From the IMG/VR virus record IMGVR_UViG_3300025941_000021, positions 1 through 64,000 of that record: DNA of 64,000 nt, one strand, 5' to 3'. Within the stretch, counting starts at the first letter, position 1; each line of letters starts with the position of its first letter. Under the pieces are notes generated by a model, which had not been told where the DNA came from, ran no database searches, and saw only the letters and a program-made list of their open reading frames with translations. This DNA comes from a virus. A program made the position numbers and the translations under genes. Positions 10,980-51,451 of the stretch are shown piece by piece.

Positions 10980-10986
10980 TTGCGGT

Positions 10987-13203
10987 CTACCTTTCTTGGT
11001 TGTCGATGAGCTTGCAGTATTCGATGACTGCTTTGTAGGGAACGGTCCAGTGAGAGGGACGGTCTGCGAGTAGCGCAGGCAACAGAGGATAGCTCTTGAG
11101 TGCCTGAGTCACAAGGGCATTCGTAACACCGTCCACAGTTTGAGTCTCACCGTAAAAGTCTGCCGAACCAGGCAGACAAGTGTGGAAGTGACGCGTCGTG
11201 GGACCAGTGGTGACGACCTTGTGAATCTGCTCGACGAGCTTCTTGAAGCCAGCGGACAATCCTTTCTTGTCTTGGAAGGCTGCGAGGTGTTCGAAGTACG
11301 TATCGTGGTCGTGAAGCAACCACGTCTTGTAGCACAACTGGAACTCGGGATCTGCCCACTTCTCTTTCAGAGTACGCAGCACGTACTGATCGAGCGTGAT
11401 CCAGTTCGAAGCTTTCTCGAACTTCTTGATGTCAGCAGTCTTCACCCCAATGAGTTGAGGCAAAGTCAAACCAGCGCCAGTGAAGTCTTCGAGCCACGAC
11501 TTGAACTCACGAGGACGCTTGCCCAACACAGTGTTGACAAGATGCCACGAATCCAGTTGGACGTACACGCCCTCTTTCACCGCAGCCAGATCGACCTCGG
11601 CTTCGTCCCAATACCGATCCGCCGCAGATCCCCATGCTTCCGTCTTGAACGAGAAGGCACGTGCCTTCGATCCCACAAGGCGAGCTTGTCGTGAGGATGC
11701 TGCACGAGGGCGCTGTGGCACCGTCGAACACATCGTCACATCCGACTCCTCGATGCCAAAGGCTTTGAGGAACTCAGGAAGCTTTCCCTTGTCGAAGGTC
11801 GGCTTGCGCTTGAGAATCTTCGGATTGAACGGATTGTTCAGCGAACTAGGATGACGAACCATCCACTCCGCATGACGAGGATCAGTCTCCTCGACTTCGC
11901 GAATGGGAACGATTACGTAACACTCCTGGTTCCGTGCGAACTTGTCACGTACGTAGTTCACGATTCGAGCCATCGAACCAGTGAAGTCTGTGTAGTAGAA
12001 GTGTGTCTCATGCGGACGAACCGGCTGAGACAGTTCCGTGACAGATGCTGCGTTCTTGCCTTCTGTATCACGACGTGGCATCGTCGCACGAATGGCGCGA
12101 AGATCGAACTCGTGTGGAATGTGCATACTGCCGGTGACAGACCGGCCATTCCACGTAGGCCGGATGCCCAACTGACCTAGCGGACCATTCTCGATCAGCT
12201 TCTGGAAAGCAATGTTTGCCTTCCAGAGAGAAGAAGCCTTCGACACCTTCTCGGTGACGTGAGCCACCAACTCTTCGTAGATGCTTTCGAGCCGCTCGTT
12301 GATGTTGTTGATGCTGTATTCCGTCCACTGGATTGCTTCACGCGCAGGCGTGATCTCGAACGCACCAGTGGGGAACTCGATCAACAGCAGAGCGCCACAA
12401 AGCTGTGACGCATTCTTGCTGATGCCGCTCTTGCCCTGCGCATCGACGGGATAGTCCACATATCCCATGCGTGCAGTCAGGGAAGAAACTGCCGTCGAAC
12501 CATAACGACCCGTCGTGCGGTCATATTGGTTCGAGTACAGCTTCCAGCCCTGTCCTTCCAGGAAAGGCTTGGGCTCTTCCTGGAAGAACTTACCGTGTAC
12601 TCCATGGATGGTCGGCTTGATCGCGAACGGCGTCAACGCACGGCGTGCTGCGTTGTGGAAGTTCGCGAAATCCTGAGGCTCGACAGAGAACGAGACTTCG
12701 AGACCAGAAGCCTCATCCGTCGGATTCTGTGCCAGAAGCAGCGTACCGGGCTTCCCGTTCGCGTTGAGGTGAACAGAGAAGTGATACTTCACGCCCTCGT
12801 GACGACTGATACACGTGAACTTCTTCGTGTACGCGAACGGGCTCTTGGATCCCAGACCGAAGAAACCAGTCTGTAGATTCGATGCCTGTTTCGTACTCTT
12901 GAAGTACGTATACAGAGTCTTGATGTTCTCCGGCGCGATTCCCTTCCCGTAATCACGGACTGAGAATACTGGCGCCATCGGATTGGGCAGGCAAACCTCG
13001 AAAGGTTTTTCCGCGTTCCCGTTGTCCACCTGTGCGTCACGTGCATTGCAGCACAACTCACGCACGATGGCTCGGAAGGGATCCGAGTACAAGCCTTTGC
13101 TGAGGACACCATATGCGTGAGCACTCAGCTCCACGCCCATCTCGACGTCTTCCGACTCGATGCTGTCCATTTCGACGTCGATGGTAGTCTCGGGAATCTG
13201 CAT
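10987..13203 (-). CDS. rIIA: rIIA-like GHKL ATPase
   Basis: 738 residues from the ATG at 13203 (MQIPETTIDVEMDS). The N-terminal domain has GHKL ATPase signatures: FRAIVRELCCNARDAQ (N box), VRDYGKGIAPENI (G1 box), and QTGFFGLGSKSPFAY (G2 box) within the first 130 residues, as in T4 rIIA and HSP90/MutL-type ATPases. The rest is long and less conserved. It is paired with the rIIB-like gene. Stop codon TAG. Likely a membrane-associated anti-exclusion or lysis-control factor by analogy with T4; not shown for this phage. Confidence 0.8.
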   Translation of the reverse strand: MQIPETTIDVEMDSIESEDVEMGVELSAHAYGVLSKGLYSDPFRAIVRELCCNARDAQVDNGNAEKPFEVCLPNPMAPVFSVRDYGKGIAPENIKTLYTYFKSTKQASNLQTGFFGLGSKSPFAYTKKFTCISRHEGVKYHFSVHLNANGKPGTLLLAQNPTDEASGLEVSFSVEPQDFANFHNAARRALTPFAIKPTIHGVHGKFFQEEPKPFLEGQGWKLYSNQYDRTTGRYGSTAVSSLTARMGYVDYPVDAQGKSGISKNASQLCGALLLIEFPTGAFEITPAREAIQWTEYSINNINERLESIYEELVAHVTEKVSKASSLWKANIAFQKLIENGPLGQLGIRPTWNGRSVTGSMHIPHEFDLRAIRATMPRRDTEGKNAASVTELSQPVRPHETHFYYTDFTGSMARIVNYVRDKFARNQECYVIVPIREVEETDPRHAEWMVRHPSSLNNPFNPKILKRKPTFDKGKLPEFLKAFGIEESDVTMCSTVPQRPRAASSRQARLVGSKARAFSFKTEAWGSAADRYWDEAEVDLAAVKEGVYVQLDSWHLVNTVLGKRPREFKSWLEDFTGAGLTLPQLIGVKTADIKKFEKASNWITLDQYVLRTLKEKWADPEFQLCYKTWLLHDHDTYFEHLAAFQDKKGLSAGFKKLVEQIHKVVTTGPTTRHFHTCLPGSADFYGETQTVDGVTNALVTQALKSYPLLPALLADRPSHWTVPYKAVIEYCKLIDNQER

Positions 13204-29338: not shown

Positions 29339-29614
29339 TCACTCCGCGGCGAGCGCTTCCGCGATCGAGGCGTCCAGCGCCGAGCGGAGTGCATCGCGCA
29401 TCGGGGCCAGCGCACGACGCGCAGCGGCCGCACCCTGGCGACGGTACGCACCATCGGTGCGCGCCAGTGCGAGCGCCACACGGGCCGACTCGGAAGCGAT
29501 GGCGCCCCCTTCCGCGAACGAGACGATCGTCTCGTGCGTGACCTTGGGTCCCTTGGGGGTCTCACGCGTGATCGTGACGTTGCGACCCTCGATCGTGACG
29601 GTGCGATTGGCCAT
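29339..29614 (-). CDS. First gene of the left arm, Ala-rich protein (91 aa)
   Basis: ATG at 29614 (MANRTVTIEGRNVTITRETP). A short beta-rich N-terminus is followed by an Ala/Arg-rich helical part (SARVALALARTDGAYRRQGA). It faces the divergent control region, so it is likely the first product of the leftward transcript. A 6-bp palindromic hairpin at 29662-29676 lies upstream. Function unknown. Confidence 0.65.
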   Translation of the reverse strand: MANRTVTIEGRNVTITRETPKGPKVTHETIVSFAEGGAIASESARVALALARTDGAYRRQGAAAARRALAPMRDALRSALDASIAEALAAE

Positions 29615-29852
29615 GGTGCGATCCTCTTCTGACACGCCTTAACATCCGAGGCGGAACGGTTTTCCCACAATGGGAAGGGAGACACTAACAGAGAACGAGA
29701 AGCGGTCAAAGGCTTTTTCGATGCCTCTCGCCGCGGCTTTGCGCCTACGCGAGACGTTGCAGCCGTCGTGCCAACGACGTAAGTAAGCGATTCTATTAGC
29801 TTATTTCAACACTGCTAGTTTGTTCAGCCTTTCAACCTATAGCGGATCCGAG

Positions 29853-29946
29853 TGATTTCGCATACTTAGCCTCTGTGTGATGCCTCACACTGCCCCGAAA
29901 CGACTCATGTGTGCTAATGTAAGCCTAATGATTTCGCATACTTAGC
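29853..29946 (+). repeat. Pair of 18-bp direct repeats
   Basis: TGATTTCGCATACTTAGC occurs at 29853-29870 and again at 29929-29946. Possible protein-binding sites at the left edge of the control region. Confidence 0.7.
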
Positions 29947-31043
29947 GATTTCGGGTCATTTCGGGGCACGTGGCGAATCGGGGCAATGCGAGCTAAATGC
30001 TTGTTTTCATTGGCCTATTGCGTCGTGGCACAATGTGGCACACCGGCGGCCGTTTACCGCCATAGTAAAATCGGTCTATTCCTCAATGATTACGTGAGCT
30101 TAGCTCGCACCTACATTGCCTCACATGTGCCAGACTACATTTCCACACATGTAGGTTGTGCCAATGACACTACGTGCCTATACAATACACGTAGTGTCAC
30201 CTACAGCTATCCCACAACGCATACATTTCCCTACATAGCCTCACCTTTCCCTACGTGTAAACCTTTTCCCTACACTTACCCACATTGTCTACAGTGTAAC
30301 CAAAACACCTACATCATATTATGATGTGAGTCTTTGCCTACATTCACCTACAGTGTGAGTATTGTCCTACAGCATACTACCTAAGCCCACATTTCCCTTC
30401 CTCGGAACACATTTCCTTACACTACACACAATGTGTGCAAACACCTACATAACGCACACTGTAGGTGGCATGACTATTGCCTGCGATGTAGGTGTCAATA
30501 CTACGTAAACCCACATGTAAGCTGTAAACTGACATGTGTTTCTCTAATACTATCAATGTGTTACATAGCCTCGCCAGAATCGATCTTTACAACGTTCCCC
30601 ATACCTAGCCGTAGCTCGCCCCGATTGTGTCTCTGCGAGGCGTATAGGCGCCGCAATGGCTTACGCTTGCAAAGCCTGAACATTCGAGCATCGGTTACAT
30701 GTGAGTCAATGTAAGCCTTTGCCTACATAGCGTTTTGCAATGCTTTGGTATGCCAATGTGTAGGTAAGTGTGCGCAATGTCCTACATAGCGATCGCGTAG
30801 GGCTCGGCGCGGAGTGTCTCTCAATACCTAAACTCTAGCCTTAGTATAATCGTGTTTGATTCTCAGTCTCTGCGATTCTGGTAACACCTACACTGCCCTA
30901 CGTAATACTACATGTGTGCATATTACCTACAGTAGAGTGAATGTGGGATGAGTACCCACCCTGTCCCTGTGTGCCTACATTGTCCTACATAGCACACATT
31001 TCCTCATGTATCCGGGGAGATACGTATGCACGGAATGGGCCAT

Positions 31044-31084
31044 GTATCAAAAGGGGTACGGTTGACAAGCACGTATCAAAAGGG
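31044..31084 (+). repeat. 12-bp direct repeats near the right edge of the control region
   Basis: GTATCAAAAGGG occurs at 31044-31055 and 31073-31084, 29 bases apart, about three helical turns. A TTGACA lies between them at 31062-31067 without a good -10 box. Likely activator or repressor sites for the rightward transcript. Confidence 0.55.
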
Positions 31085-31164
31085 ATTCCTTGGGGTCGGG
31101 TAAGTCCTGTACCTGCCTCCGGATATTAGATTTTTGAAAAATAGTACCCGTCGAGTATAGGTGT

Positions 31165-31176
31165 TGACACGTGTCA
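31165..31176. promoter_or_regulatory. 12-bp palindrome, possible operator
   Basis: TGACACGTGTCA is a perfect palindrome upstream of the first rightward gene. Its position suits a dimeric regulator. Confidence 0.4.
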
Positions 31177-31304
31177 TGCGGGAGACGCTCTCAGTTGATA
31201 CCCGCCATGGAGAGAAAGTTCATTTTCGGCCGGGATCTTGTAGGGAGGCGTTCTCAGTGGATCGCCAGTATGAGCGTGCTAAGCTCGGATTGGAGGAGTT
31301 TCGG

Positions 31305-31859
31305 ATGGGCACACTTAGAACGATGGACCTAAAGAGGCGTGTGTTGAACACACAGGGGTCGTTTATGCATGCGGATGGTGTGGTACTCGCTGCGTATACC
31401 CTCGATAAAGGGTTTCTAGAGGTCAGTTTGCCTGTCCGTACGGATGTGGGTACCACTACATCGTTCGAAATGCTGCTCAAAGTGACTAAAGCGAGTGTTT
31501 TGAGGGACTCTTCGGGCCTAAATACGGCTGTTTGGTTCGACTTTGTGTGTCATACCAAAGGCATAGACTCTTGGGCGTTCGCTAGACCGTGTGTTTGGAC
31601 GTCGGTGGATGATACTTTTGCCATGAATGACCTCGAATCGGGGCCAGGTGAGAGTATTCAGGCTCAACTTTTCACAGAAATGGGTATGCCGCCGCCTAAT
31701 ACTTCGGAAGAGACTGACACTGCGTTTGAGGAAGTGTTCTTGAAGCATGTAGATGAGTGCTTGAGGAAGCTTGTTGCCCTTGCGATGCGTAAACGTATGG
31801 GTGTGATTGAGGAATCGGATATTGTCGTGGCTGAGACTGAGTGGTCTCTGCTAGACTAA
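31305..31859 (+). CDS. First gene of the right arm, hypothetical (184 aa)
   Basis: The start is the ATG at 31305, with GGAGGAG seven bases upstream. The longer GTG start at 31161 is not supported. The protein has strand-rich segments (VVLAAYTLDKGFLEVSLPV, TAVWFDFVCHTKGIDSWAF) and a helical C-terminus. No family recognised. Its position next to the control region suggests early expression. Confidence 0.75.
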   Translation: MGTLRTMDLKRRVLNTQGSFMHADGVVLAAYTLDKGFLEVSLPVRTDVGTTTSFEMLLKVTKASVLRDSSGLNTAVWFDFVCHTKGIDSWAFARPCVWTSVDDTFAMNDLESGPGESIQAQLFTEMGMPPPNTSEETDTAFEEVFLKHVDECLRKLVALAMRKRMGVIEESDIVVAETEWSLLD

Positions 31860-32069: not shown

Positions 32070-32356
32070 AGAGCGAAGCTATGTGGCGAGTCATTGACCG
32101 TGTTCTCAAGCGTCAACCGAACATCAAGAGGAACCAGTATGCGGATGGTGCTACTCTCATCGAGGATTTGATGGAGTTTTGCTCGCCATTCAAGAAGGGA
32201 CATGAGACTGACTTGTTTGAGGTGTCAGTTGTGCCTGACAAGGATGCTTTGATCATCCGTATCACTGGAAAGAACCAGTTTGGCAAGGCTGCGGTCATGC
32301 AGTGGTCGGAAGATGCTGTTGCGGCTGAGTTTCAGGATCCAGAGGATGAGTGCTGA
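32066..32356 (+). CDS. Hypothetical protein (96 aa)
   Basis: The ATG overlaps the upstream stop. A basic helical N-half and beta-strand C-half (LFEVSVVPDKDALIIRITG). No family recognised. Confidence 0.6.
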   Translation: MKSEAMWRVIDRVLKRQPNIKRNQYADGATLIEDLMEFCSPFKKGHETDLFEVSVVPDKDALIIRITGKNQFGKAAVMQWSEDAVAAEFQDPEDEC

Positions 32357-32732
32357 GGTTAGAACTGTTGCGGATCGTATGACTGAATCTGGATTGTCGG
32401 AGCCGGAGTTGGCTTTCGTCCAGATCATGAATAAAGCGGCTGATTTGCAGGAAACTTGGGCAAAGCATTGTGCTGAGTATGCTGCGATGGCTGTGATCCG
32501 AAAGTGTACTGTGCAGGACATATACAACCATGGGCAAACACGTGCACAGTGTGTCTCGGCAATCGAAAACATATTGTTGCAGGCTGGGACTACACTTGGT
32601 ACGCGTCCTAGGTTCTCTGTCAGTGTAGATAGTAAAGATGAAATCGTCATCCTACCGAGAAATGGTGCCGCTGCGAGGTTGCTCAAGAGGTATGAGATCT
32701 TGTACACTCAACGTGAGCTAGGTAGGGACTGA
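32346..32732 (+). CDS. Hypothetical helical protein (128 aa)
   Basis: Start ATG at 32346 (MSAEVRTVADRMTESG), overlapping the upstream gene by 11 bases. Mostly helical. The C-terminal part (FSVSVDSKDEIVILPRNGA) is strand-like. No family recognised. Confidence 0.6.
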   Translation: MSAEVRTVADRMTESGLSEPELAFVQIMNKAADLQETWAKHCAEYAAMAVIRKCTVQDIYNHGQTRAQCVSAIENILLQAGTTLGTRPRFSVSVDSKDEIVILPRNGAAARLLKRYEILYTQRELGRD

Positions 32733-43102: not shown

Positions 43103-43175
43103 GGAAGCGAAGCTAACCGGCCAGGCACTCGGCTCTTAACCGAAACATAGATGGGTTCGACTCCCTCCGCTTCCA
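43103..43175 (+). tRNA. tRNA-Lys (anticodon CTT)
   Basis: Acceptor GGAAGCG/CGCTTCC, loop CTCTTAA giving CTT, canonical T-loop TTCGACT. CCA is not encoded. Reads AAG. Confidence 0.85.
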
Positions 43176-43258
43176 TAAAAGTGTCGCGATTCTCACGACA
43201 ACGCTAAACAATGAGATACCAATGTGAATGCTCGTGGGGAGTACATCGCGTTTAGATA

Positions 43259-43276
43259 CGCGGGCCGCAAGCCCGC
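43259..43276 (+). other. GC-rich hairpin between tRNAs
   Basis: 6-bp stem GCGGGC/GCCCGC around a 5-base loop, with a short T-rich run some 20 bases later. Terminator or processing site. Confidence 0.4.
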
Positions 43277-43307
43277 ACTACCTCTCTACATTTTTCGTCA
43301 CATACAT

Positions 43308-43378
43308 TCCGATTTCGTCTAAAGGCAGGACAGCGGTCTCTGAAACCGTTAATCGAGGTTCGATTCCTTGCGTCGGAG
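43308..43378 (+). tRNA. tRNA-Gln (anticodon CTG)
   Basis: Anticodon loop CTCTGAA, T-loop TTCGATT. It is closely similar to tRNA-Gln(TTG) at 51368, an evident duplication with an anticodon change. Reads CAG. Confidence 0.85.
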
Positions 43379-43444
43379 TAGGTCGAAAGACCATTTGAAA
43401 ACTGAATAGGGTCATTGATTTCGGTACGCTTCGGCGTACCTCAT

Positions 43445-43519
43445 TGGGGTGTATGTCGCGTTGGAAAGACAGTACGGCTGTTAACCGTATGTGCGGGGGT
43501 TCGATTCCCTCTGCCCCAG
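43445..43519 (+). tRNA. tRNA-Asn (anticodon GTT), copy 1
   Basis: Acceptor TGGGGTG/TGCCCCA, stem TACGG/CCGTA, loop CTGTTAA, T-loop TTCGATT. Confidence 0.8.
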
Positions 43520-43527
43520 CTATCTAT

Positions 43528-43600
43528 GGTGGATTAGCTCAGGAAGTTGAGCAGTAAGCTGTTAACTTACCCGAGGTAGGTGCAAGTCCTACATCCATCG
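43528..43600 (+). tRNA. tRNA-Asn (anticodon GTT), copy 2
   Basis: Acceptor GGTGGAT/ATCCATC, stem GTAAG/CTTAC, loop CTGTTAA, unusual T-loop TGCAAGT. It differs widely from copy 1, so it is not a recent duplicate. Confidence 0.8.
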
Positions 43601-43607
43601 TACAAAC

Positions 43608-43683
43608 GCAGCTTGAGCGAGTAGGGTTACATACGCGACGGTCTGAAAAGCCGTAGAACTTGGTTCGACTCCAAGAAGCTGCA
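43608..43683 (+). tRNA. tRNA-Phe (anticodon GAA)
   Basis: Acceptor GCAGCTT/AAGCTGC, anticodon loop CTGAAAA, T-loop TTCGACT. Confidence 0.85.
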
Positions 43684-43686
43684 TAC

Positions 43687-43774
43687 CAGGGTGTAGGTGG
43701 GTAGATGGTAGCCCTCTCGTTTTGGAGACGAGTAACACAAGATCGCCGTGCAGGTTCGAGTCCTGTCGCCCTGA
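43687..43774 (+). tRNA. Class II-shaped tRNA with Pro anticodon (TGG)
   Basis: Acceptor CAGGGTG/CGCCCTG. Anticodon stem CTCGT/ACGAG is perfect with loop TTTGGAG, so TGG. The variable region is about 17 nt with a CAC/GTG mini-stem, which is unusual for proline tRNAs and normal only for Leu, Ser and Tyr. Identity is therefore uncertain. Confidence 0.6.
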
Positions 43775-43779
43775 TATCT

Positions 43780-43862
43780 GGTTGAGACGCGTCAATGGTC
43801 GGCGCAGCGGTCTGTAAAACCGCCTCCTTCGGGAACAGTAGGTTCGATTCCTTCCTCAACCA
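43780..43862 (+). tRNA. tRNA-Tyr (anticodon GTA)
   Basis: Acceptor GGTTGAG/CTCAACC, stem GCGGT/ACCGC, loop CTGTAAA, and the long variable arm expected for bacterial tRNA-Tyr. Confidence 0.9.
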
Positions 43863-44072
43863 TAGTGAATGCTCGATTGGGTTTACATCACTGAATATGA
43901 TCCGACGCGGGTGCAACTCCCGTAAGCTCCATCAGTTCTAAACAAACGGGGCTGCCAGTGCTAGGCTAAACAACTCGGTCACTCTCGTCACTAACTAATA
44001 GGTTCCTAGCTCAAGTTTCAGAGCATCCCTGACAACGGGGAAAGATCGTGGAGTATGACCACGGGAATCTGC
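43863..44072 (+). ncRNA. ssrA: Circularly permuted tmRNA-like locus
   Basis: 43904-43931 (GACGCGGG, loop TGCAACT, CCCG, AGCTCCA) is nearly the bacterial tmRNA 3' end. GGGGCT at 43948-43953 pairs with AGCTCC at 43925-43930, but the 5' half lies 16 bases downstream, the order of two-piece tmRNAs. P2-like pairing joins the pieces: 43881-43885 with 43967-43971 and 43889-43893 with 43956-43960. A frame ending at tandem TAA TAG (43996-44001) is a candidate tag, but it lacks a typical Ala-Ala end. Later hairpin CGTGG/CCACG near 44047. The 3' limit is a guess. Confidence 0.6.
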
Positions 44073-44075
44073 CAT

Positions 44076-44147
44076 CGGAGTATAGGCAAGTGGTATGTCG
44101 CACCGTTTGGGGCGGTGATGTCGGGTGTTCGATTCACCCTACTCCGA
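44076..44147 (+). tRNA. tRNA-Pro (anticodon TGG)
   Basis: Acceptor CGGAGTA/TACTCCG, stem CACCG/CGGTG, loop TTTGGGG with the G37 typical of Pro, T-arm GGGTG-TTCGATT-CACCC. Confidence 0.85.
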
Positions 44148-44152
44148 TTTCT

Positions 44153-44225
44153 GTCGTCGTCGCCTAAAGGTTGGCACCCGGCTTTTAACCGGACACAAAT
44201 GCTGGTTCGAGTCCAGTCGGCGGCA
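44153..44225 (+). tRNA. tRNA-Lys (anticodon TTT)
   Basis: Acceptor GTCGTCG/CGGCGGC, D-stem GCC/GGC, anticodon loop CTTTTAA, T-loop TTCGAGT. Confidence 0.85.
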
Positions 44226-44238
44226 TCAGATTTCTAAC

Positions 44239-44310
44239 GGAGCTATCGTATAACGGTTAGTACACATCGCTGATAACGATGTTACGAAAGTTCGACTCTT
44301 TCTAGCTCCA
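44239..44310 (+). tRNA. tRNA-Ile (anticodon GAT)
   Basis: Acceptor GGAGCTA/TAGCTCC, stem CATCG/CGATG, loop CTGATAA, T-loop TTCGACT. Confidence 0.9.
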
Positions 44311-44354
44311 TACCAGACTCACGCAGGGAAACCTGCGGAGAGCCTCTGGACAAT

Positions 44355-44427
44355 GCGCTCATAGTATTCTGGTGAGTACACTTGATTGTCAATCAAGGCC
44401 AGGGGAGTTCGATCCTCCTTGGGCGCG
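44355..44427 (+). tRNA. tRNA-Asp (anticodon GTC)
   Basis: Acceptor GCGCTCA/TGGGCGC, stem CTTGA/TCAAG, loop TTGTCAA, T-loop TTCGATC. A 6-bp hairpin with GAAA loop precedes it near 44322. Confidence 0.85.
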
Positions 44428-44433
44428 CTTCAT

Positions 44434-44507
44434 GGTGACTATAGTGTAGAGGTCCGCATGCCGGTCTGTGAATCCGGCGGTGGTGGGTTCGATTCCCCCT
44501 AGTCACC
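44434..44507 (+). tRNA. tRNA-His (anticodon GTG)
   Basis: G-1 can pair with C73, acceptor GTGACTA/TAGTCAC, anticodon loop CTGTGAA. The 31-39 pair is T-T. Confidence 0.85.
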
Positions 44508-44520
44508 CTCACATGTTTTC

Positions 44521-44624
44521 GGGGCGTTGGTGTAATGTAAGCACATACTAAGTATGGCGAAGTCCCAACCTGGCCCTTCAATGGGCAAGGTAGAGAGCTG
44601 GTTAGAATCCGGCACGCTCCACCA
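44521..44624 (+). ncRNA. Composite tRNA-like RNA with encoded CCA
   Basis: Acceptor GGGGCGT/ACGCTCC followed by A-CCA, and a T-arm GCTGG-TTAGAAT-CCGGC with a non-standard loop. Between the ends are a D-arm-like GTG/CAC hairpin, a tight CATAC-TAA-GTATG hairpin and a longer hairpin (ACCT/AGGT and GCCC/GGGC around TTCAAT). No standard anticodon arm. It could be a degenerate class II tRNA or a tRNA-mimic RNA such as a YrlA-type Y RNA. Confidence 0.45.
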
Positions 44625-44687
44625 ATCTTGTACACGGTAACCAACCCGTGCAGATGCGAGTCGAAGATGCTCATGATCATCTTCAAA

Positions 44688-44784
44688 CTTGAGGTTCTAT
44701 GGGATACTCGGACTGCCCGACTTGATCCCGTGTGAAAACACGGAGGAGGGAGGGTGGGAGGCTCTGAGGGAGTAGAAACTCAAG
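44688..44784 (+). ncRNA. Possible structured RNA
   Basis: CTTGAG (44688-44693) pairs with CTCAAG (44779-44784) around a 97-nt region holding CCGTGT-GAAA-ACACGG. A 7-bp hairpin GAAGATG/CATCTTC lies just upstream. It matches no RNA I know. Confidence 0.3.
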
Positions 44785-44789
44785 ACCAT

Positions 44790-44861
44790 ACGTTAGTGCT
44801 CCTGGGAGAGCGGCTGGCCTCCAAAACCGGCGTCAAGAGGGTTCGAATCCTTCCTAGCGTG
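44790..44861 (+). tRNA. tRNA-Trp (anticodon CCA)
   Basis: Acceptor ACGTTAG/CTAGCGT, loop CTCCAAA. The 31-39 pair is C-A. T-loop TTCGAAT. Confidence 0.85.
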
Positions 44862-44862
44862 C

Positions 44863-44890
44863 TTGACAACGCACTACGGTGTGTTACCAT
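44863..44890 (+). promoter_or_regulatory. Promoter P4 inside the tRNA array
   Basis: TTGACA (44863-44868), 16-base spacer, TACCAT (44885-44890), directly upstream of tRNA-Ala. Confidence 0.65.
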
Positions 44891-44896
44891 AACAAT

Positions 44897-44967
44897 GGGC
44901 CGCGAGTAGGACGGGAATACGTTACGCTTGCACCGTGAAAGATAGGGTTCGACTCCCTAGCGGTCCA
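44897..44967 (+). tRNA. tRNA-Ala (anticodon TGC)
   Basis: Acceptor GGGCCGC/GCGGTCC, stem TTACG/CGTGA, loop CTTGCAC, T-loop TTCGACT. Confidence 0.85.
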
Positions 44968-44985
44968 TCAGCCGGTAGTCTAAGT

Positions 44986-45068
44986 TAGTCGGTCGCGAGA
45001 CTGGCAATGGCAAAGACACTATGCCTAGAACATAGAGTTTACGGGTGGAAATCCCGTCCGACTGACCA
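44986..45068 (+). tRNA. Atypical tRNA, anticodon TAG (Leu?), encoded CCA
   Basis: Perfect anticodon stem CTATG/CATAG with loop CCTAGAA (C at position 33 instead of T), T-arm ACGGG-TGGAAAT-CCCGT, acceptor TAGTCGG/CCGACTG, and ACCA encoded at the end. The D-arm region is unusually long and a second 5' end (44969) is possible. Short variable loop, unlike normal Leu tRNAs. Confidence 0.5.
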
Positions 45069-45071
45069 ATC

Positions 45072-45144
45072 GCTGGTAAGGTGTAAATAGAGACACACTT
45101 CCTTGGTATGGATGTGATCAGGATGCAAGTTCCTGTACCAGCTT
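45072..45144 (+). tRNA. tRNA-Thr (anticodon GGT)
   Basis: Acceptor GCTGGTA/TACCAGC, loop TTGGTAT, T-arm CAGGA-TGCAAGT-TCCTG with the TGC-type T-loop also seen in tRNA-Asn copy 2. Confidence 0.8.
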
Positions 45145-45213
45145 CGGTGAATGCCGACCGTGAATACATCATTTCAAGATCAAACCTTCACGATCACTTT
45201 CGTCACCACCAAT

Positions 45214-45285
45214 GTACCTGTACGTCAACGGATAGACTCTGACGCTACGAACGTCCGAATGCGGGTTCGATTCCTGCCGGGTACG
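45214..45285 (+). tRNA. tRNA-Arg (anticodon ACG)
   Basis: Acceptor GTACCTG/CGGGTAC, loop CTACGAA; A34 would be converted to inosine by host TadA. T-arm GCGGG-TTCGATT-CCTGC. Confidence 0.85.
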
Positions 45286-45290
45286 TGACT

Positions 45291-45363
45291 GCTTCTATAG
45301 CACAATGGATAGTGTGCGCGCCTTCTAAGCGCTGCGATCTGGGTTCGAATCCTAGTAGGAGCG
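45291..45363 (+). tRNA. tRNA-Arg (anticodon TCT)
   Basis: Acceptor GCTTCTA/TAGGAGC, loop CTTCTAA on a 4-bp GCGC/GCGC stem, T-loop TTCGAAT. Reads AGA. Confidence 0.85.
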
Positions 45364-45367
45364 TAAT

Positions 45368-45440
45368 CTCTTCGTAGCATAACGGATAGTGTACCGCACT
45401 CCTAAGGCGGGTGGTGTGAGTTCAAATCTCACCGAAGAGG
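45368..45440 (+). tRNA. tRNA-Arg (anticodon CCT)
   Basis: Acceptor CTCTTCG/CGAAGAG, loop CTCCTAA. The 31-39 pair is A-G. T-loop TTCAAAT. Reads AGG. Confidence 0.85.
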
Positions 45441-45464
45441 CTAATCAAAGATCCTATTCTCAAC

Positions 45465-45538
45465 GCACTACGACTCAGCAAGCGACGAGAACGGTTTTAC
45501 ACACCGTCAAATGCAGGGCGCGATACCCTGGTGGTGCA
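45465..45538 (+). tRNA. tRNA-Val (anticodon TAC)
   Basis: Acceptor GCACTAC/GTGGTGC, perfect stem ACGGT/ACCGT, loop TTTACAC, unusual T-loop CGCGATA. Confidence 0.8.
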
Positions 45539-45544
45539 TACAAT

Positions 45545-45626
45545 GCCGGAGTGGTGGAATGGCAGACACAGCGGTCTTAGAAGCCGCCGTACTTCGTACA
45601 TGAAGGTTCGACTCCTTTCTTCGGCA
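45545..45626 (+). tRNA. tRNA-Leu (anticodon TAG)
   Basis: Acceptor GCCGGAG/CTTCGGC, stem GCGGT/GCCGC, loop CTTAGAA, long variable arm as expected for Leu. Confidence 0.9.
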
Positions 45627-45630
45627 TAAC

Positions 45631-45710
45631 GGGCGCGTGGTGGAATGGCAGACACACCAGACTAAGAATCTGGCGCGAATAGCGTGGGAGTTCGACTCTC
45701 CCCGTGCCCA
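45631..45710 (+). tRNA. tRNA-Leu (anticodon AAG)
   Basis: Acceptor GGGCGCG/CGTGCCC, perfect stem CCAGA/TCTGG, loop CTAAGAA, class II variable arm. A34 implies deamination or direct reading of CUU. Confidence 0.85.
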
Positions 45711-45711
45711 T

Positions 45712-45785
45712 AGCGGTGCAGTTGGAGATGACAGGGGAGTCTCATAAGCTCTCACAACCGGACGCGACTTCCGGGGCCGCTCCCA
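45712..45785 (+). tRNA. tRNA with CAT anticodon, copy 1 (Met/fMet/Ile2), CCA encoded
   Basis: Acceptor AGCGGTG/GGCCGCT with one mismatch, loop CTCATAA, T-arm CCGGA-CGCGACT-TCCGG, followed by C-CCA. Initiator, elongator or Ile2 identity cannot be decided by eye. Confidence 0.75.
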
Positions 45786-45787
45786 AT

Positions 45788-45859
45788 GTCAATACAAGCA
45801 GGTTGCTTAGCGGGCTCTCATAAGGCTCTGCTCGTGAGGTTCGAGTCCTCCTATTGGCA
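45788..45859 (+). tRNA. tRNA with CAT anticodon, copy 2 (Met/fMet/Ile2)
   Basis: Acceptor GTCAATA/TATTGGC, loop CTCATAA, T-loop TTCGAGT. No CCA. Differs strongly from copy 1, so the two probably have different identities. Confidence 0.8.
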
Positions 45860-45902
45860 CTCCTAGTTCGAAGCGACTAAGATAACCTGGTTACCAGGTG
45901 AC

Positions 45903-45985
45903 GCCCGTGTGATGGAATGGCAGACATGACGGTCTCAAAAACCGTTGCCTTGACAGGCGTGCGAGTTCGACTCTCGCCGTGGGCA
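45903..45985 (+). tRNA. tRNA-Leu (anticodon CAA)
   Basis: Acceptor GCCCGTG/CGTGGGC, stem ACGGT/ACCGT, loop CTCAAAA, class II variable arm. Reads UUG. Confidence 0.9.
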
Positions 45986-46027
45986 TGTATGGAAAAGACA
46001 AAAACTGGTGGCGCGTAGGTTTCTACC

Positions 46028-46474
46028 ATGCGGACTAATCAAAAGCTGTATGTCGTAACTCGTCGAGATTTGTCTCCGGGTGCGCAGGCAGTGCAAGGCA
46101 TGCATGCTTTGGTTGAGTTCAAGTTCGAAAATCCAGATCAAGCCCGAGAGTGGCATGCTGAATCCAACACGTTGGGTTTCCTGTCTGTTGCAGACGAGAA
46201 AGAACTCAACGAACTGAGTGGAAAGCTGTTCTCTCTCGGCATTGCACATTCCCTGTTCCGCGAGCCGGATATGGGTATGAGCTTGACAGCCCTCGCAATA
46301 GAGGCTACAGATCAAGCAATGGAAGCGGTACGTCATCTGCCGCTAGCGATGAAAGAACTTCGAGCCTCTATGGGCCATCAGCAGGGCCAGCGGCTTCTAA
46401 ACCCGCGAAGCTCGGGGCAGCACCGAGTAGGGGCAGTGTGGAAACTTCTCAAGCAAGGGCTAGGGCTAAGTTAG
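46028..46474 (+). CDS. Pth2-like peptidyl-tRNA hydrolase
   Basis: 148 residues. KLYVVTRRDLSPGAQAVQGM with a conserved His next, a DEKELNELSGKLFSLGIAH segment, and SLFREPDMGMSLTALAIEA follow the archaeal/eukaryotic-type Pth2 order. The usual Lys after the Gly of the GK motif is Ala here, so activity is uncertain. The fold would end near residue 115; the last 35 or so residues coincide with the tRNA-like element at 46364. It likely releases peptides from stalled peptidyl-tRNA, recycling the phage tRNAs. Confidence 0.65.
   Translation: MRTNQKLYVVTRRDLSPGAQAVQGMHALVEFKFENPDQAREWHAESNTLGFLSVADEKELNELSGKLFSLGIAHSLFREPDMGMSLTALAIEATDQAMEAVRHLPLAMKELRASMGHQQGQRLLNPRSSGQHRVGAVWKLLKQGLGLS
46364..46435 (+). 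tRNA. tRNA-like element with amber anticodon CTA
   Basis: Full cloverleaf by hand: acceptor GCCTCTA/TAGGGGC (7 of 7), D-stem GGCC/GGCC, anticodon stem 4 bp plus a C-C at 31-39 with loop TTCTAAA (T33, CTA), and T-stem CTCGG/CCGAG (5 of 5). D- and T-loops lack the standard GG and TTC, and it overlaps the end of the Pth2 gene in sense. It would read UAG. Confidence 0.5.
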
Positions 46475-46629
46475 TTGAGTGGGCGTACATGGCACACTAC
46501 GGCGGGAAGTCTATGCTTGAGTGGATAGAAGACGAAGAAGTGCTAAACTACTGCAAAGATTACGAACTTGACCCAAAAGTGTTGGATCACATCGCATATT
46601 GGGTGTGGCGTGGTCTGAATAGACATTGA
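46438..46629 (+). CDS. Small helical protein (63 aa)
   Basis: GTG start at 46438, three bases after the tRNA-like element, or an internal ATG (MAHYGGKSM). VEWAYMAHYGGKSMLEWIED then VLNYCKDYELDPKVLDHIAY is a two-helix protein of unknown function. Confidence 0.55.
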   Translation: METSQARARAKLVEWAYMAHYGGKSMLEWIEDEEVLNYCKDYELDPKVLDHIAYWVWRGLNRH

Positions 46630-46718
46630 GGTGCGTAGGTGGCTGGTTGCCACAGGTCGGTTTATAACCGATACGTCTGATAAACACCGGAAGATGGGTT
46701 CGATTCCTGTACGCACCA
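46630..46718 (+). tRNA. Class II-shaped tRNA with anticodon TAT
   Basis: Acceptor GGTGCGT/ACGCACC, perfect D-stem GTGGC/GCCAC, anticodon stem GTCGG/CCGAT, loop TTTATAA, T-loop TTCGATT. The anticodon predicts Ile (AUA), yet the variable region is about 21 nt, as in Leu, Ser or Tyr tRNAs. Amino acid identity is therefore open. Confidence 0.65.
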
Positions 46719-46721
46719 TGA

Positions 46722-46805
46722 GGACTTGTGATGGAATAGGCAGACAGACGACACTTAAAACGTTGTGGTAGCGATACCGTGTGGGTTCAACTCCCACCAG
46801 GTCCA
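46722..46805 (+). tRNA. tRNA-Leu (anticodon TAA)
   Basis: Acceptor GGACTTG/CAGGTCC, loop CTTAAAA, class II variable arm. The 31-39 pair is A-C. Confidence 0.85.
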
Positions 46806-46819
46806 TTGAGGAGGAACCA

Positions 46820-47371
46820 ATGACTAGCATCATAGAGCGCAGAACTTTGCTGTTGAACTCTACTTACGAGCCACTTCGCGTGATCTCGTGGCAGCGTGCA
46901 GTCATCCTCTGGTTCGAAGACAAGGTTGAGGTCTTGAAGGAATATGAAGACTTCGAGCTAACTTCAATGTCACTCACCATGAAGTGTCCCGCTGTCGTGC
47001 GCTTGTTTGAGTACGTCAACGGCAAGAAGCATCGTGTGAAGTTCTCACGCATCAACGTATTTGCACGTGACAAGTACACGTGTCAATACTGTGGTGACAA
47101 GCCAGGTACACAGAACCTCACCTATGACCACGTGATTCCTCGTTCCAAGGGCGGAAAGACTGTCTGGGACAACATCGCTACATGCTGTATCAGGTGTAAC
47201 GGTAAGAAGGCAGACAGAACTCCGGCTGAGGCAAGGATGGTGTTGCGTTCGAAGCCGGTAAAGCCTGACTGGACTCCACGTCAGAAGCTCATCATTGCCC
47301 TTCCAAACACTCCTGACTGTTGGAGGGACTACCTCTACTGGAACCAGGAGTTGGAAAATGACAACGAGTAG
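46820..47371 (+). CDS. HNH endonuclease
   Basis: 183 residues from ATG 46820, with GAGGAGG upstream. NVFARDKYTCQYCGDK, YDHVIPRSKGG, WDNIATCCIRCNGKKADRTP give a zinc-stabilised HNH/McrA fold with the catalytic DH and both CxxC pairs. The N-terminal LLLNSTYEPLRVISWQRAV is typical of this subfamily. It may be a free-standing mobile endonuclease inserted in the tRNA array. Stop TAG. Confidence 0.8.
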   Translation: MTSIIERRTLLLNSTYEPLRVISWQRAVILWFEDKVEVLKEYEDFELTSMSLTMKCPAVVRLFEYVNGKKHRVKFSRINVFARDKYTCQYCGDKPGTQNLTYDHVIPRSKGGKTVWDNIATCCIRCNGKKADRTPAEARMVLRSKPVKPDWTPRQKLIIALPNTPDCWRDYLYWNQELENDNE

Positions 47372-47591
47372 CTTTCACCACCACTACATTGACAGGAAGG
47401 AACCTGAGTCTCCATCTATCGAGGTGTATACTCGGTTCTCTTTCTGGAACATGATCAAGATGATCATGCTTGGCGAATACGCTCATGTTTCCCATGAGTT
47501 GACTGAGGCTGAGATTGACCATTTGGCACGCACTATTGTCCGCTACAAGCTAACAAAGCGATTGCGTGCCGAAAGGAAGTCTGCTACATAA
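47358..47591 (+). CDS. Hypothetical protein (77 aa)
   Basis: ATG at 47358 overlaps the end of the HNH gene. His-rich start (MTTSSFHHHYIDRK), then FSFWNMIKMIMLGEYAHVSH and a charged helix. No family recognised. Confidence 0.55.
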   Translation: MTTSSFHHHYIDRKEPESPSIEVYTRFSFWNMIKMIMLGEYAHVSHELTEAEIDHLARTIVRYKLTKRLRAERKSAT

Positions 47592-47599
47592 TACATCCT

Positions 47600-47681
47600 G
47601 GAAGAAAAGATGGCAGTGGTGCCATACCTGTCTTGAAAACAGGGTGCCGTAACAGGTCGGGTTCGACTCCTATTTCTTCCG
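47600..47681 (+). tRNA. tRNA-Ser (anticodon TGA)
   Basis: Acceptor GGAAGAA/TTCTTCC, perfect stem CCTGT/ACAGG, loop CTTGAAA, class II variable arm. Confidence 0.9.
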
Positions 47682-47780
47682 AATGGATAGGCAAAGCCAC
47701 ATGCCGGCGTGATCAAATCCTGCAAAGTCCAGTTCAAGCGTTGGTGACGCGCTAGGCCACCGGAAGGTGAGTCACCATTT
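47682..47780 (+). other. Spacer with tRNA-Cys-like fragment and nested hairpin
   Basis: CTGCAAA and TTCAAG occur in tRNA-like spacing near 47719-47738 but no acceptor stem was found. GGTGAC/GTCACC with an inner CACC-GGAA-GGTG hairpin follows (about 47742-47775). Probably a decayed tRNA or processing site. Confidence 0.3.
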
Positions 47781-47865
47781 GGAGAGTAGAGTGGCTAGGT
47801 GCCACCCACGCCTGGAAAGCGTCGGATACCCGCAAGGGTAGGTGTTTCGAGTACACTGCTCTCCG
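47781..47865 (+). tRNA. tRNA-Ser (anticodon GGA)
   Basis: Acceptor GGAGAGT/GCTCTCC, 4-bp stem ACGC/GCGT, loop CTGGAAA, class II variable arm, T-loop TTCGAGT. Confidence 0.88.
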
Positions 47866-47869
47866 TATT

Positions 47870-47953
47870 GGAAAGTAACCTGCTCTGGGAGCAGCCCTGC
47901 CTCGAAAACAGGTGCACGGTTCGCCCGTGGTGGTTCGATTCCACTGCTTTCCG
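47870..47953 (+). tRNA. tRNA-Ser (anticodon CGA)
   Basis: Acceptor GGAAAGT/GCTTTCC, loop CTCGAAA with C-A at 31-39, class II variable arm. Confidence 0.88.
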
Positions 47954-47965
47954 TGAGGAGACAAC

Positions 47966-48553
47966 ATGGCAATCAAAGAAATCCTTCACTATCCGAATCC
48001 TATTCTCAAGCAGCAGACTGACCCGGTTGAAATCTTTGACGAGGGTATCGCGCAGTTGTCAGCAGACTTGAGAGATACGGCGAAGGCATTTCGCGCTGAG
48101 GGTCTCGCTGCCAACCAGATTGGTGCATTGTACTCGATGTTTGTGATTCGTGACTTCAAATCTCAGGAATACATCACGTGCATCAATCCGCAGATTCTGG
48201 CAGTCCACACGGACCAGGTGGACTCCAATGAGGGCTGTCTCAGCTTCCCTGGCGTCCTGGAACGCCTCAAGCGCGCTGAGTCGGTCCGTGTCACCTACCA
48301 AGACGAAGGCGGCCTGGTGACCGAGCGTTGGCTCTCTGGAATCACGTCTGTGGCATTCCAACACGAGTTGGACCATCTTCAAGGAAAGCTTTTCATCGAT
48401 CGCATGGGTAACCTACAGAAGCGTCTTGCTCTCAAGCGCTTGGACAAGGTGTCCCGTACGACGAAGCGATTTGCCAAGCAAATCCAAGGAAAGCTGCAAA
48501 AGGAACTTCGCAAGATCGAACTTGCACAGGCTTCCAAGTCTGCTACAGTGTGA
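47966..48553 (+). CDS. def: Peptide deformylase
   Basis: 195 residues from ATG 47966 (SD GAGGAGA). Motif 1 GLAANQIG, motif 2 EGCLSFPG with the metal-binding Cys, motif 3 QHELDHLQG with both His ligands and the catalytic Glu. It removes the formyl group from new N-termini. The C-terminal extension of about 35 residues is helical and basic (KRFAKQIQGKLQKELRK), a possible ribosome contact by analogy with bacterial enzymes. It sits between serine tRNAs, so it is co-transcribed with the translation block. Confidence 0.9.
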   Translation: MAIKEILHYPNPILKQQTDPVEIFDEGIAQLSADLRDTAKAFRAEGLAANQIGALYSMFVIRDFKSQEYITCINPQILAVHTDQVDSNEGCLSFPGVLERLKRAESVRVTYQDEGGLVTERWLSGITSVAFQHELDHLQGKLFIDRMGNLQKRLALKRLDKVSRTTKRFAKQIQGKLQKELRKIELAQASKSATV

Positions 48554-48560
48554 AGTTCTT

Positions 48561-48648
48561 GGAGAGTAACTCGACTTAGTAGTCGGCACTGTTTGCTAAA
48601 CAGAGGGTACGTGTAAAAGCGTATGGGGTGCGATTCCTCTGCTCTCCG
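48561..48648 (+). tRNA. tRNA-Ser (anticodon GCT)
   Basis: Acceptor GGAGAGT/GCTCTCC, loop TTGCTAA on a 4-bp CTGT/ACAG stem, long variable arm, T-loop TGCGATT. Shares its acceptor with tRNA-Ser(GGA). Confidence 0.85.
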
Positions 48649-48650
48649 TG

Positions 48651-48884
48651 GTTTCTTCTCGGTTGTACGCACTAACCCACTTGTTGGGATGTGAGGAAGT
48701 TCGCGGCTCCACTGCTAGACATGGGAGGCCAAAAGCCGTCCGTACCATGGAGGGAGCAAGTCAAACAGGGCAGAGTCGGAAAGCAGGATGTTGACGCCCG
48801 GGTTGATGCCACTAGAGGAATGTACAAACAGAAATCGGCCCTGTCAGTCGATTTTGGACAAAACCGCGGCTATAGAGAAGTTCC
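48651..48884 (+). ncRNA. rnpB: Compact RNase P RNA
   Basis: Conserved core in the right order. 5' GAGGAAGTTCGCGGCTCC (48693-48710) matches CRI. Then GAGCAAGTCAAACAGGG (48754-48770) matches CRIV, CTAGAGGAATG (48812-48822), and GACAAAACCGCGGCTAT (48857-48873) matches CRV. Helices: P1 48655-48660/48875-48880, P2 48661-48668/48822-48829, P3 hairpin 48671-48693, P4 48697-48706/48864-48871 with the bulged U kept and covarying bases relative to E. coli, P5 GCTCC/GGAGC, P15 GGGC/GCCC. About 226 nt against 377 in E. coli; most of the specificity domain is missing. Confidence 0.85.
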
Positions 48885-48913
48885 TTGACAACCTCCGCAC
48901 CTGAGGTCATACT
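48885..48913 (+). promoter_or_regulatory. Promoter P5 after the RNase P RNA
   Basis: TTGACA (48885-48890), 17-base spacer, CATACT (48908-48913), 14 bases before tRNA-Glu(CTC). Confidence 0.65.
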
Positions 48914-48927
48914 GGTGAAATCAAGAC

Positions 48928-48999
48928 GGCCCTATCGTCTAATGGCTAGGACGCCAGCCTCTCACGTTGAGAATCGGGGTTCAAATCCCCGTAGGGTCA
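48928..48999 (+). tRNA. tRNA-Glu (anticodon CTC)
   Basis: Acceptor GGCCCTA/TAGGGTC, loop CTCTCAC, T-arm CGGGG-TTCAAAT-CCCCG. Confidence 0.85.
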
Positions 49000-49005
49000 T
49001 CAAAC

Positions 49006-49077
49006 GGTCCATTCGTCTAGTGGTTAGGACGGCAGGCTTTCAATCTGCGAACCGGAGTTCGATTCTCCGATGGATCA
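49006..49077 (+). tRNA. tRNA-Glu (anticodon TTC)
   Basis: Acceptor GGTCCAT/ATGGATC, stem GCAGG/TCTGC, loop CTTTCAA, T-loop TTCGATT. Confidence 0.88.
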
Positions 49078-49113
49078 TTCCCGGTCCTCATTCCTGAGGA
49101 AACCCACCGGGAA
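49078..49113 (+). other. Two-part hairpin between tRNA-Glu and tRNA-Gly
   Basis: TTCCCGGT/ACCGGGAA encloses CCTCA-TTCC-TGAGG. A stable processing or terminator-like hairpin without U run. Confidence 0.5.
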
Positions 49114-49119
49114 ATCAAT

Positions 49120-49190
49120 GCGGGTAAAGTATAATGGTAGTATGAGTGGTTGCCAGCCATTCGGACAGGGTTCGATTCCCTGTACCCGCA
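49120..49190 (+). tRNA. tRNA-Gly (anticodon GCC)
   Basis: Acceptor GCGGGTA/TACCCGC, loop TTGCCAG, T-arm CAGGG-TTCGATT-CCCTG. Confidence 0.9.
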
Positions 49191-49194
49191 CTAC

Positions 49195-49265
49195 GCGGTT
49201 GAGATGTTACGGTAGCATGCGAGGCTTCCAACCTTGACGCGCGGGTTCGACTCCCGCTAGCCGCT
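49195..49265 (+). tRNA. tRNA-Gly (anticodon TCC)
   Basis: Acceptor GCGGTTG/TAGCCGC, loop CTTCCAA, T-arm GCGGG-TTCGACT-CCCGC. Confidence 0.88.
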
Positions 49266-49351
49266 TTCCGAGTAGCTCAGAGAAATAGAGCGTTAGGCTG
49301 TTGTGCACACATTTGGCCTAAAGGTCGGTGGTTTAAGTCCACCCTCGGGAT
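49266..49351 (+). tRNA. tRNA-like gene with 19-nt anticodon loop
   Basis: Acceptor TTCCGAG/CTCGGGA, D-arm GCTC/GAGC, T-arm GGTGG-TTTAAGT-CCACC and anticodon stem TTAGG/CCTAA are all perfect or nearly so, but the loop between the stem strands is 19 nt and contains the palindrome TGTGCACA. It may carry a short insertion or tiny intron, or be inactive. Amino acid not assignable. Confidence 0.6.
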
Positions 49352-49353
49352 CT

Positions 49354-49425
49354 GGTGCAATATCGATCTGGGATCGATGCAGTCTGCAAAACTGTTACAG
49401 GTGGGTCCGATTCCCACTTGCACCT
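49354..49425 (+). tRNA. tRNA-Cys (anticodon GCA)
   Basis: Acceptor GGTGCAA/TTGCACC, D-arm TCGATC/GATCGA, loop CTGCAAA, T-loop TCCGATT. Confidence 0.88.
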
Positions 49426-49430
49426 TCACA

Positions 49431-49492
49431 CAGCAGGTTATCTGATTGTGGACGTTTGCCAACTCCACCCGCGCAGTCAGAGATGCTTGCTG
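49431..49492 (+). ncRNA. Long imperfect hairpin, candidate Y RNA
   Basis: 5' and 3' ends pair (CAGCA/TGCTG), followed by ATCT/AGAT and GATTG/CAGTC with small bulges, and an inner GTGGA/TCCAC. Y RNAs are long end-paired stems with bulges bound by Ro60, and the Ro60 gene starts 170 bases downstream. Purely structural suggestion. Confidence 0.3.
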
Positions 49493-49524
49493 TCGTACTA
49501 AGTCGGCGGGAAAGTTGGAAACAT

Positions 49525-49596
49525 GCTGCATAAGCGTAAATGGTGACGCGCCGCCCTTGTAACGCGGAGAATCCGGTTCGATTCCGGAACGCAGCT
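49525..49596 (+). tRNA. tRNA-Thr (anticodon TGT)
   Basis: Acceptor GCTGCAT/ACGCAGC with one mismatch, loop CTTGTAA. The 31-39 pair is C-C. T-loop TTCGATT. Confidence 0.82.
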
Positions 49597-49663
49597 TAAA
49601 ACTGAATAGCTATACCAGCATAGTGCTGGGTTGTCTCCAACGGGATGAAAGGAGAATGTTTCT

Positions 49664-51244: not shown

Positions 51245-51269
51245 CCGCAGTGTGCTAACATAATCGCTC

Positions 51270-51289
51270 GGGTTGGGTAACACCAACCC
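51270..51289 (+). terminator. Hairpin after the Ro60 gene
   Basis: 7-bp perfect stem GGGTTGG/CCAACCC around GTAACA. No U run, so partial termination or processing. Confidence 0.4.
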
Positions 51290-51293
51290 ACAT

Positions 51294-51367
51294 GCTGGTA
51301 ATGCCGAAATGGTGCGGCACCTCATTCGTAACGAGGAATAGAGGGAGTTCGATTCTCCCTACCAGCT
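51294..51367 (+). tRNA. tRNA-Thr (anticodon CGT)
   Basis: Acceptor GCTGGTA/TACCAGC, D-arm GCCG/CGGC, loop TTCGTAA. The 31-39 pair is A-C. T-loop TTCGATT. Confidence 0.85.
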
Positions 51368-51438
51368 TCGGGTTTCGTCTAAAGGCAGGACAGTGGACTT
51401 TGACCCCACCAATCGAGGTTCGATTCCTCGCGCCCGAA
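51368..51438 (+). tRNA. tRNA-Gln (anticodon TTG)
   Basis: Acceptor TCGGGTT/CGCCCGA, loop CTTTGAC. The 31-39 pair is A-C. Body nearly identical to tRNA-Gln(CTG) at 43308. Confidence 0.85.
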
Positions 51439-51451
51439 TCTACCAACACGA

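Follow-up and report, generated by a model that had tools for sequence, protein, structure and literature searches.

A gene-free zone at about 29.6-31.1 kb of the window (the entire 64,000-nucleotide stretch of viral DNA that was analyzed) probably contains, at 29.65-31.0 kb, an iteron-type replication origin of a phage with a genome of about 169 kb. We give this reading, which is built on sequence features, a probability of about 0.72. An earlier note had proposed that the region is either an origin or a master control region for early genes. The first half of that proposal has gained ground: phased iterons flank the AT-richest spot of the genome, the same type of array and a second box recur in other phages, mixed arrays of the same hexamer lie at the 3' ends of primase-helicase genes, and CCTACA repeats in phage TMW 1.591 P1 occupy the position of the annotated origin of phage A2. 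The control half has no specific support; promoter-like sites in the zone occur at chance level.

The window comes from a virus record of 69.3 kb, and the same phage is represented by contig IMGVR_UViG_3300009177_000029 (G001), which is 169,063 bp long. Because this contig ends in a 123-bp exact terminal repeat, it can be closed to a circle of 168,940 bp. The 69.3-kb fragment and the contig differ at 10 positions, 6 of which fall right at the fragment's beginning. No close isolate of this phage is known. Gene calling on the circular genome yielded 192 genes with completely separated strands. A leftward arm runs from 29.7 kb back around the circle as far as 142.6 kb, where it meets a rightward arm that starts at 31.2 kb, so there is one divergent switch and one convergent switch. 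The phage encodes a replisome that includes a DnaB helicase, a DnaG-like primase, PolA, an SSB-like protein, UvsX, and SbcCD, together with an SPO1-like portal and a class II ribonucleotide reductase.

The basic description given in the earlier note was confirmed on inspection. It had reported around 20 CCTACA/TGTAGG hexamers in both orientations over about 900 bases, accompanied by longer direct repeats and a palindrome, between divergent gene arms. No credible gene is present in 29615-31160, with genes pointing leftward on its left and rightward on its right; the flanking proteins match no family, and no homolog of the first rightward open reading frame was found in viral contigs or phage records. 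The direct repeats (D1-D11) and the palindrome are real. There are 20 hexamers in 29615-31304 (15 on the plus strand and 5 on the minus strand), and 19 of these, out of 90 copies in the entire genome, fall within 30110-30989, where only about 1 would be expected. For the interval 29701-31160, the 19 copies compare with 0.6 expected from the remainder of the window and with 1.06 expected from local dinucleotide shuffles (maximum of 5 in 1000). Nowhere else in the genome does a 1-kb interval contain more than three copies. When one mismatch to CCTACAT is allowed, 30 sites are found in 930 bp vs 2.3 expected. Of all 1-kb intervals in the genome, this one has the highest repeat density as well (7-mer pair score of 448; mean 95.5, sd 29.8).

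The hexamers are also regularly ordered. Distances between copies on the same strand are 10, 19, 29-30, 39, 48, and 58-59 bp, with one pair at 27 bp, and the spacing has a period of 9.65 bp (p = 0.0012 vs random placement). When both strands are considered, none of 500 random placements gave equally strong phasing. With this spacing, the sites form a degenerate, helically phased array of ~10-bp units in two clusters. The hexamers are the core of this unit, and the array proper spans 30110-30989. Between the two clusters lies a 40-bp stretch richer in AT than any other in the genome (top 0.01% of windows of this size), which we consider a candidate DNA unwinding element even though it is only 70% AT. 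Phages A2 and P1, as well as G016 and G017, likewise have an AT-rich stretch between repeat clusters. Three features of iteron origins, namely repeats clustered above chance, helical phase, and an adjacent AT-rich region, are found here (Table 1).

Table 1. Coordinates of features in and around the gene-free zone.
Feature	Position	Strand	Remarks
First leftward gene	29339-29614	-	91 aa; matches no family
Gene-free zone between leftward and rightward arms	29615-31160		Sole divergent switch of the circular 169-kb genome
Box copy 1, AGTGATTTCGCATACTTA	29851-29868	+	One mismatch; left flank of array
Box copy 2, AATGATTTCGCATACTTA	29927-29944	+	Left flank of array
Iteron cluster 1	30110-30492		CCTACA, 9 plus and 3 minus, with degenerate units; ~9.65-bp phasing
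Palindrome TGACACTACGTG-N11-CACGTAGTGTCA	30165-30199		Within iteron cluster 1
AT-rich core between clusters (putative unwinding element)	30497-30557		70% AT over 40 bp at 30518
Iteron cluster 2	30722-30989		CCTACA, 6 plus and 1 minus; includes 10-bp tandem pair (30974, 30984)
Cumulative GC-skew minimum of whole circular genome	31012		Computed genome-wide
Direct repeat CAYGTATCAAAAGGG, two copies, core ATCAAAAGGG	31041-31084	+	Upstream of first rightward gene
First rightward open reading frame	31161-31859	+	At most 232 aa; matches no family

A plausible course of events at such an origin can be sketched. A sequence-specific protein would bind the CCTACA units of both clusters on roughly one face of the helix, and the resulting complex may bend the DNA and open the AT-rich segment that separates the clusters. 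The phage DnaB-type helicase, primase, and PolA-type polymerase could then be loaded at the opened segment, and replication would proceed both ways along the arms. A second recognized element may be provided by the AATGATTYCGCATACTTA boxes that flank the array on the left.

The earlier note had suggested GC skew over the whole genome as a check, and the cumulative minimum does fall inside the zone. The skew mostly reflects the coding strand, however: arms and genes coincide completely, codon-3 skew is near zero, and uncalled DNA flips weakly (-0.033 to +0.055). In the relative G008, the minimum is at the gene switch whereas the repeats are 6-8 kb away. GC skew is therefore weak support, and we do not take it as proof of an origin. 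A bacterial oriC with a DnaA-box cluster does not describe the zone, which contains no exact copy of TTATCCACA and only one with a single mismatch. Against an origin, it must be counted that no replication genes adjoin the zone; the helicase, primase, and polymerase genes are 73-86 kb distant.

The placement of the array exactly between divergent arms would also be expected if the CCTACA sites were operators for a phage regulator that acts on divergent early promoters reading into both arms. The sequence ATCAAAAGGG could be viewed in the same light, as its two copies, 29 bp apart, are confined to the 120 bp that precede the first rightward gene and are absent from the rest of the 169-kb genome. 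The direct repeat that contains it is a possible operator. We nevertheless consider early control of this type an unlikely function for the array as a whole. Promoter-like sites, scored with the sigma-70 consensus only, are no more frequent than chance would produce, and 20 phased sites over 900 bp would be large for an operator. Moreover, other CCTACA arrays adjoin primase genes at their 3' ends, a place where a divergent promoter is not expected. Searches of RNA families returned no match to the zone.

Related phages provide a broader view of the region. BLAST comparison of the zone and one array with phage records gave no match, as the repeats are too short for such a search. In G008, which has a genome of 165.8 kb and a polymerase 57% identical to that of the 169-kb phage, a repeat-rich non-coding region of about 3 kb situated 6-8 kb left of the gene switch contains 13 copies of the box at three or fewer mismatches, 9 of them exact. 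The same region holds 10-bp tandems of TGACCCTATG/TGACCATACA and palindromes of TGAACANNTGTTCA. Another relative, G006 (ribonucleotide reductase 74%), has an array built of a different repeat, GCAACCTTCGTGCCA; this array lies at the end of the contig, upstream of the first gene that points rightward. Evidently, this kind of region is retained while the sequence of the repeat changes. In the relative G002, a run of small look-alike proteins with CxxC pairs is encoded directly right of the gene switch (L003:4450-6260).

In the genome of the 169-kb phage, the box AATGATTYCGCATACTTA occurs twice beside the array and nowhere else within three mismatches. A scan of viral contigs for this box uncovered two additional phages, L071 and L075, with 19 and 21 CCTACA copies no more than 1.5 kb away. 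The box is therefore common to G008, L071, and L075, always in repeat-rich non-coding DNA, and in two of them it is accompanied by about 20 CCTACA sites. The contigs of L071 and L075 share with the 169-kb phage relatives of DnaB, the SSB-like protein, and UvsX, as well as of ribonucleotide reductase, thymidylate synthase, and dUTPase. AT tracts (88-95% AT over 40 bp) lie inside both regions. Taken alone, the CCTACA spacing in these two phages shows no significant periodicity across the region as a whole (p about 0.2), yet distances of 10, 19, 29, and 39 bp dominate all the same.

The product of g149 (111543-112094), a gene common to G001, L071, and L075 and unmatched in G008, was considered as a possible binding protein but proved to be a dUTPase. 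A conserved 78-aa protein is encoded within or beside several CCTACA arrays (L071:1435-1668, L075:1946-2179, L083:9249-9482, and L122:1333-1566), in some cases with a paralog, and was not found in the 169-kb phage. Its fold model (mean pLDDT of 68) has Pur-alpha/PC4-like DNA-binding domains as best neighbors (Z of 6.5 or less), which suggests, with weak confidence, a fold of this type.

A variant of the box found in G008, AATGATTTCAAGNRCTTA, is present in the GGCGGAGAT array located 3' of the helicase-primase gene in Rhizobium phage RHph_N65. This pattern matches at least 120 viral stretches vs 43 for the reversed pattern. Only 26 of the 119 examined matches are in long open reading frames, compared with 40 of 43 reversed-pattern controls, and 35 of 111 examined are in repeat-rich DNA, compared with 0 of 42 controls. 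The reversed-pattern control rules out a coding artifact, and AATGATTTCAAGNRCTTA is, judging from this distribution, a real non-coding element. It is widespread in phages and often sits amid repeats (L345-L463; L344:3975-4075).

Scans for phased pairs and triples of CCTACA returned many viral contigs. A large false class among the matches comprised coding 9-bp repeats, which make up most of the one-strand clusters; requiring both orientations excluded them and left 31 mixed arrays. The 3' end of a primase-helicase gene adjoins 15 of these 31 arrays and none of 101 other CCTACA clusters that these scans returned (p = 1.4e-11), although these counts are partly circular because the primase profiles were built from proteins beside some arrays, whereas the Pfam and PHROGs identifications are independent. 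The families represented are D5_N/DUF5906, Prim-Pol with a RecA-like ATPase (RepA-like), and DnaG-type or DUF927-like primases. Arrays in cellular genomes show a weaker association of this kind (6 of 27 vs 2 of 92). No recognized primase adjoins about half of the mixed viral arrays, and several are near terminase genes, both of which count against an origin.

The last observation raises the prospect of a packaging (pac) site or a centromere-like partition site, where the array would be bound by a small terminase subunit or by a ParB/ParR-like protein. Similar arrays lie ~0.4-2.1 kb from terminase large-subunit genes in five contigs (L076, L088, L127, L156, and L206), of which L076 and L088 have the same 10-bp phased CCTACA unit as the 169-kb phage. 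Phased ~10-bp repeats occur in plasmid centromeres as well. In the 169-kb phage, however, the terminase gene (140.85-142.65 kb) is ~57 kb from the array around the circle, no par genes are present among the proteins scanned, and the annotated origin of phage A2 shares the layout of the array. We judge a packaging or partition role very unlikely.

Mixed arrays, many of them in Bacteroidota, also adjoin ordinary genes in bacterial and other chromosomes (e.g., L222, L228, L231, and L253), with neighbors that include an S41 peptidase, fumarase, a restriction methylase, and ThiC; this, too, counts against an origin. Such placement beside unrelated genes in Bacteroidota, along with the variation in repeat sequence between G006 and G008, would be in keeping with fast-evolving, selfish, or host-derived repeats that accumulated in a gene-free gap and have no role in replication. 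We hold this to be the least probable of the explanations considered, given the helical phasing, the many phages with arrays at primase genes, and the second conserved box that likewise resides in repeat-rich non-coding DNA. An iteron origin accounts for the phasing, the AT core, the location, and the link to replication genes better than does an operator, packaging, or partition array.

A connection to an annotated origin comes from the array of L338. The D5 primase beside this array is 62% identical to the primases of Latilactobacillus phage TMW 1.591 P1 and Lactobacillus phage A2. The A2 record (AJ251789.2) includes an annotated rep_origin at 32208-32717 that begins at the primase gene's 3' end and contains ACGGGAGGAT repeats, which occur in either orientation and surround a 90%-AT core. 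Moscoso and Suarez reportedly demonstrated this origin by experiment in 2000. At the same position in P1 (OQ240252.1), 3' of the DNA primase gene, GTGTAGG/CCTACAC repeats surround a 95%-AT core, and Listeria phage PSA has TATCCACC repeats. The iterons of these close D5 relatives differ, and thus sequence alone is insufficient to define an origin.

The A2 origin, which lies next to replication genes, resembles the array of the 169-kb phage in its short repeats, some in ~10-12-bp tandem, in the use of both orientations, and in its AT core. It differs in its iteron, in its smaller genome of 43 kb, and in its location directly 3' of a D5-type primase gene. An A2-type origin in this strict sense is not present in the 169-kb phage, whose genome has no match to the D5, Prim-Pol/RepA, or DnaG/DUF927 profiles, and an initiator of the D5 or Prim-Pol type was not found by this search. 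P1 has CCTACA/TGTAGG repeats whose two opposed clusters flank an AT-rich core, but has only six sites over ~250 bp beside a primase gene and is not annotated as an origin at this position.

Other known systems share portions of this architecture. Iterons in plasmids are typically held in helical phase (PMC5043065), and both these plasmids and lambda ori have initiator-binding iterons adjoining an AT-rich region. The lambda repeats are inverted, 19 bp long, and bound by O, in contrast to the ~10-bp units described here. T4 is a large phage with a DnaB-like helicase and UvsX; its oriE, near a transcription switch and composition shift, has short direct repeats at even intervals (PMC3016281). Compared by layout, the 169-kb phage likewise has even direct repeats near a strand switch and a T4-type replisome, and oriE by analogy offers a precedent for such an origin. 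The T4 repeats, however, are 12 nt long, their role “remains ill defined” (PMC3016281), and T4 has several origins, some of which operate through R-loops. Finally, a repeat-rich non-coding region is required for replication of the PLE satellite of Vibrio cholerae, and the authors of that study noted that an ori between divergent operons fits the strand bias (PMC7145576). This 18-kb satellite differs in using a RepA_N initiator and semi-palindromic iterons.

Origins of this kind are already known. What looks new is the composite of iterons and box that is common to phages with unrelated replication enzymes, a T4-like replisome among them. No published paper that names the CCTACA array or the box motifs was found. 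We tentatively propose, at somewhat less than even odds, that a shared origin code of helically phased CCTACA iterons, sometimes joined by an AATGATTYC-N5-CTTA-type box, extends across phages of the D5/SF3, Prim-Pol/RepA-like, DnaG-type, and T4-like DnaB/UvsX types. If true, this would imply a mobile origin module or an unrecognized common recognizer, and would provide a defined iteron origin for large phages with T4-like replisomes. How large lytic phages of this type choose their start sites is poorly understood. One type of array can be traced from the 169-kb phage to small temperate phages whose primases are known, and on to a phage whose relative has an annotated origin, which makes this question testable. 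The CCTACA and box motifs can also serve as sequence probes, as pattern scans alone located origin-like regions in many uncultured phages.

Several additional features of the genome were observed. Adjacent rIIB- and rIIA-like genes are in the leftward arm (window 9870-13203) of this phage, which has an SPO1-like portal. In the head gene cluster, a 901-aa protein (window 60200-62905) includes a weak PI3/PI4-kinase-like stretch (Pfam 7e-10). The window carries 33 tRNA genes, 32 of which are grouped at 43103-51440 in the rightward arm and cover nearly all amino acids, and the 169-kb genome also encodes a tRNA nucleotidyltransferase and an RNA ligase.
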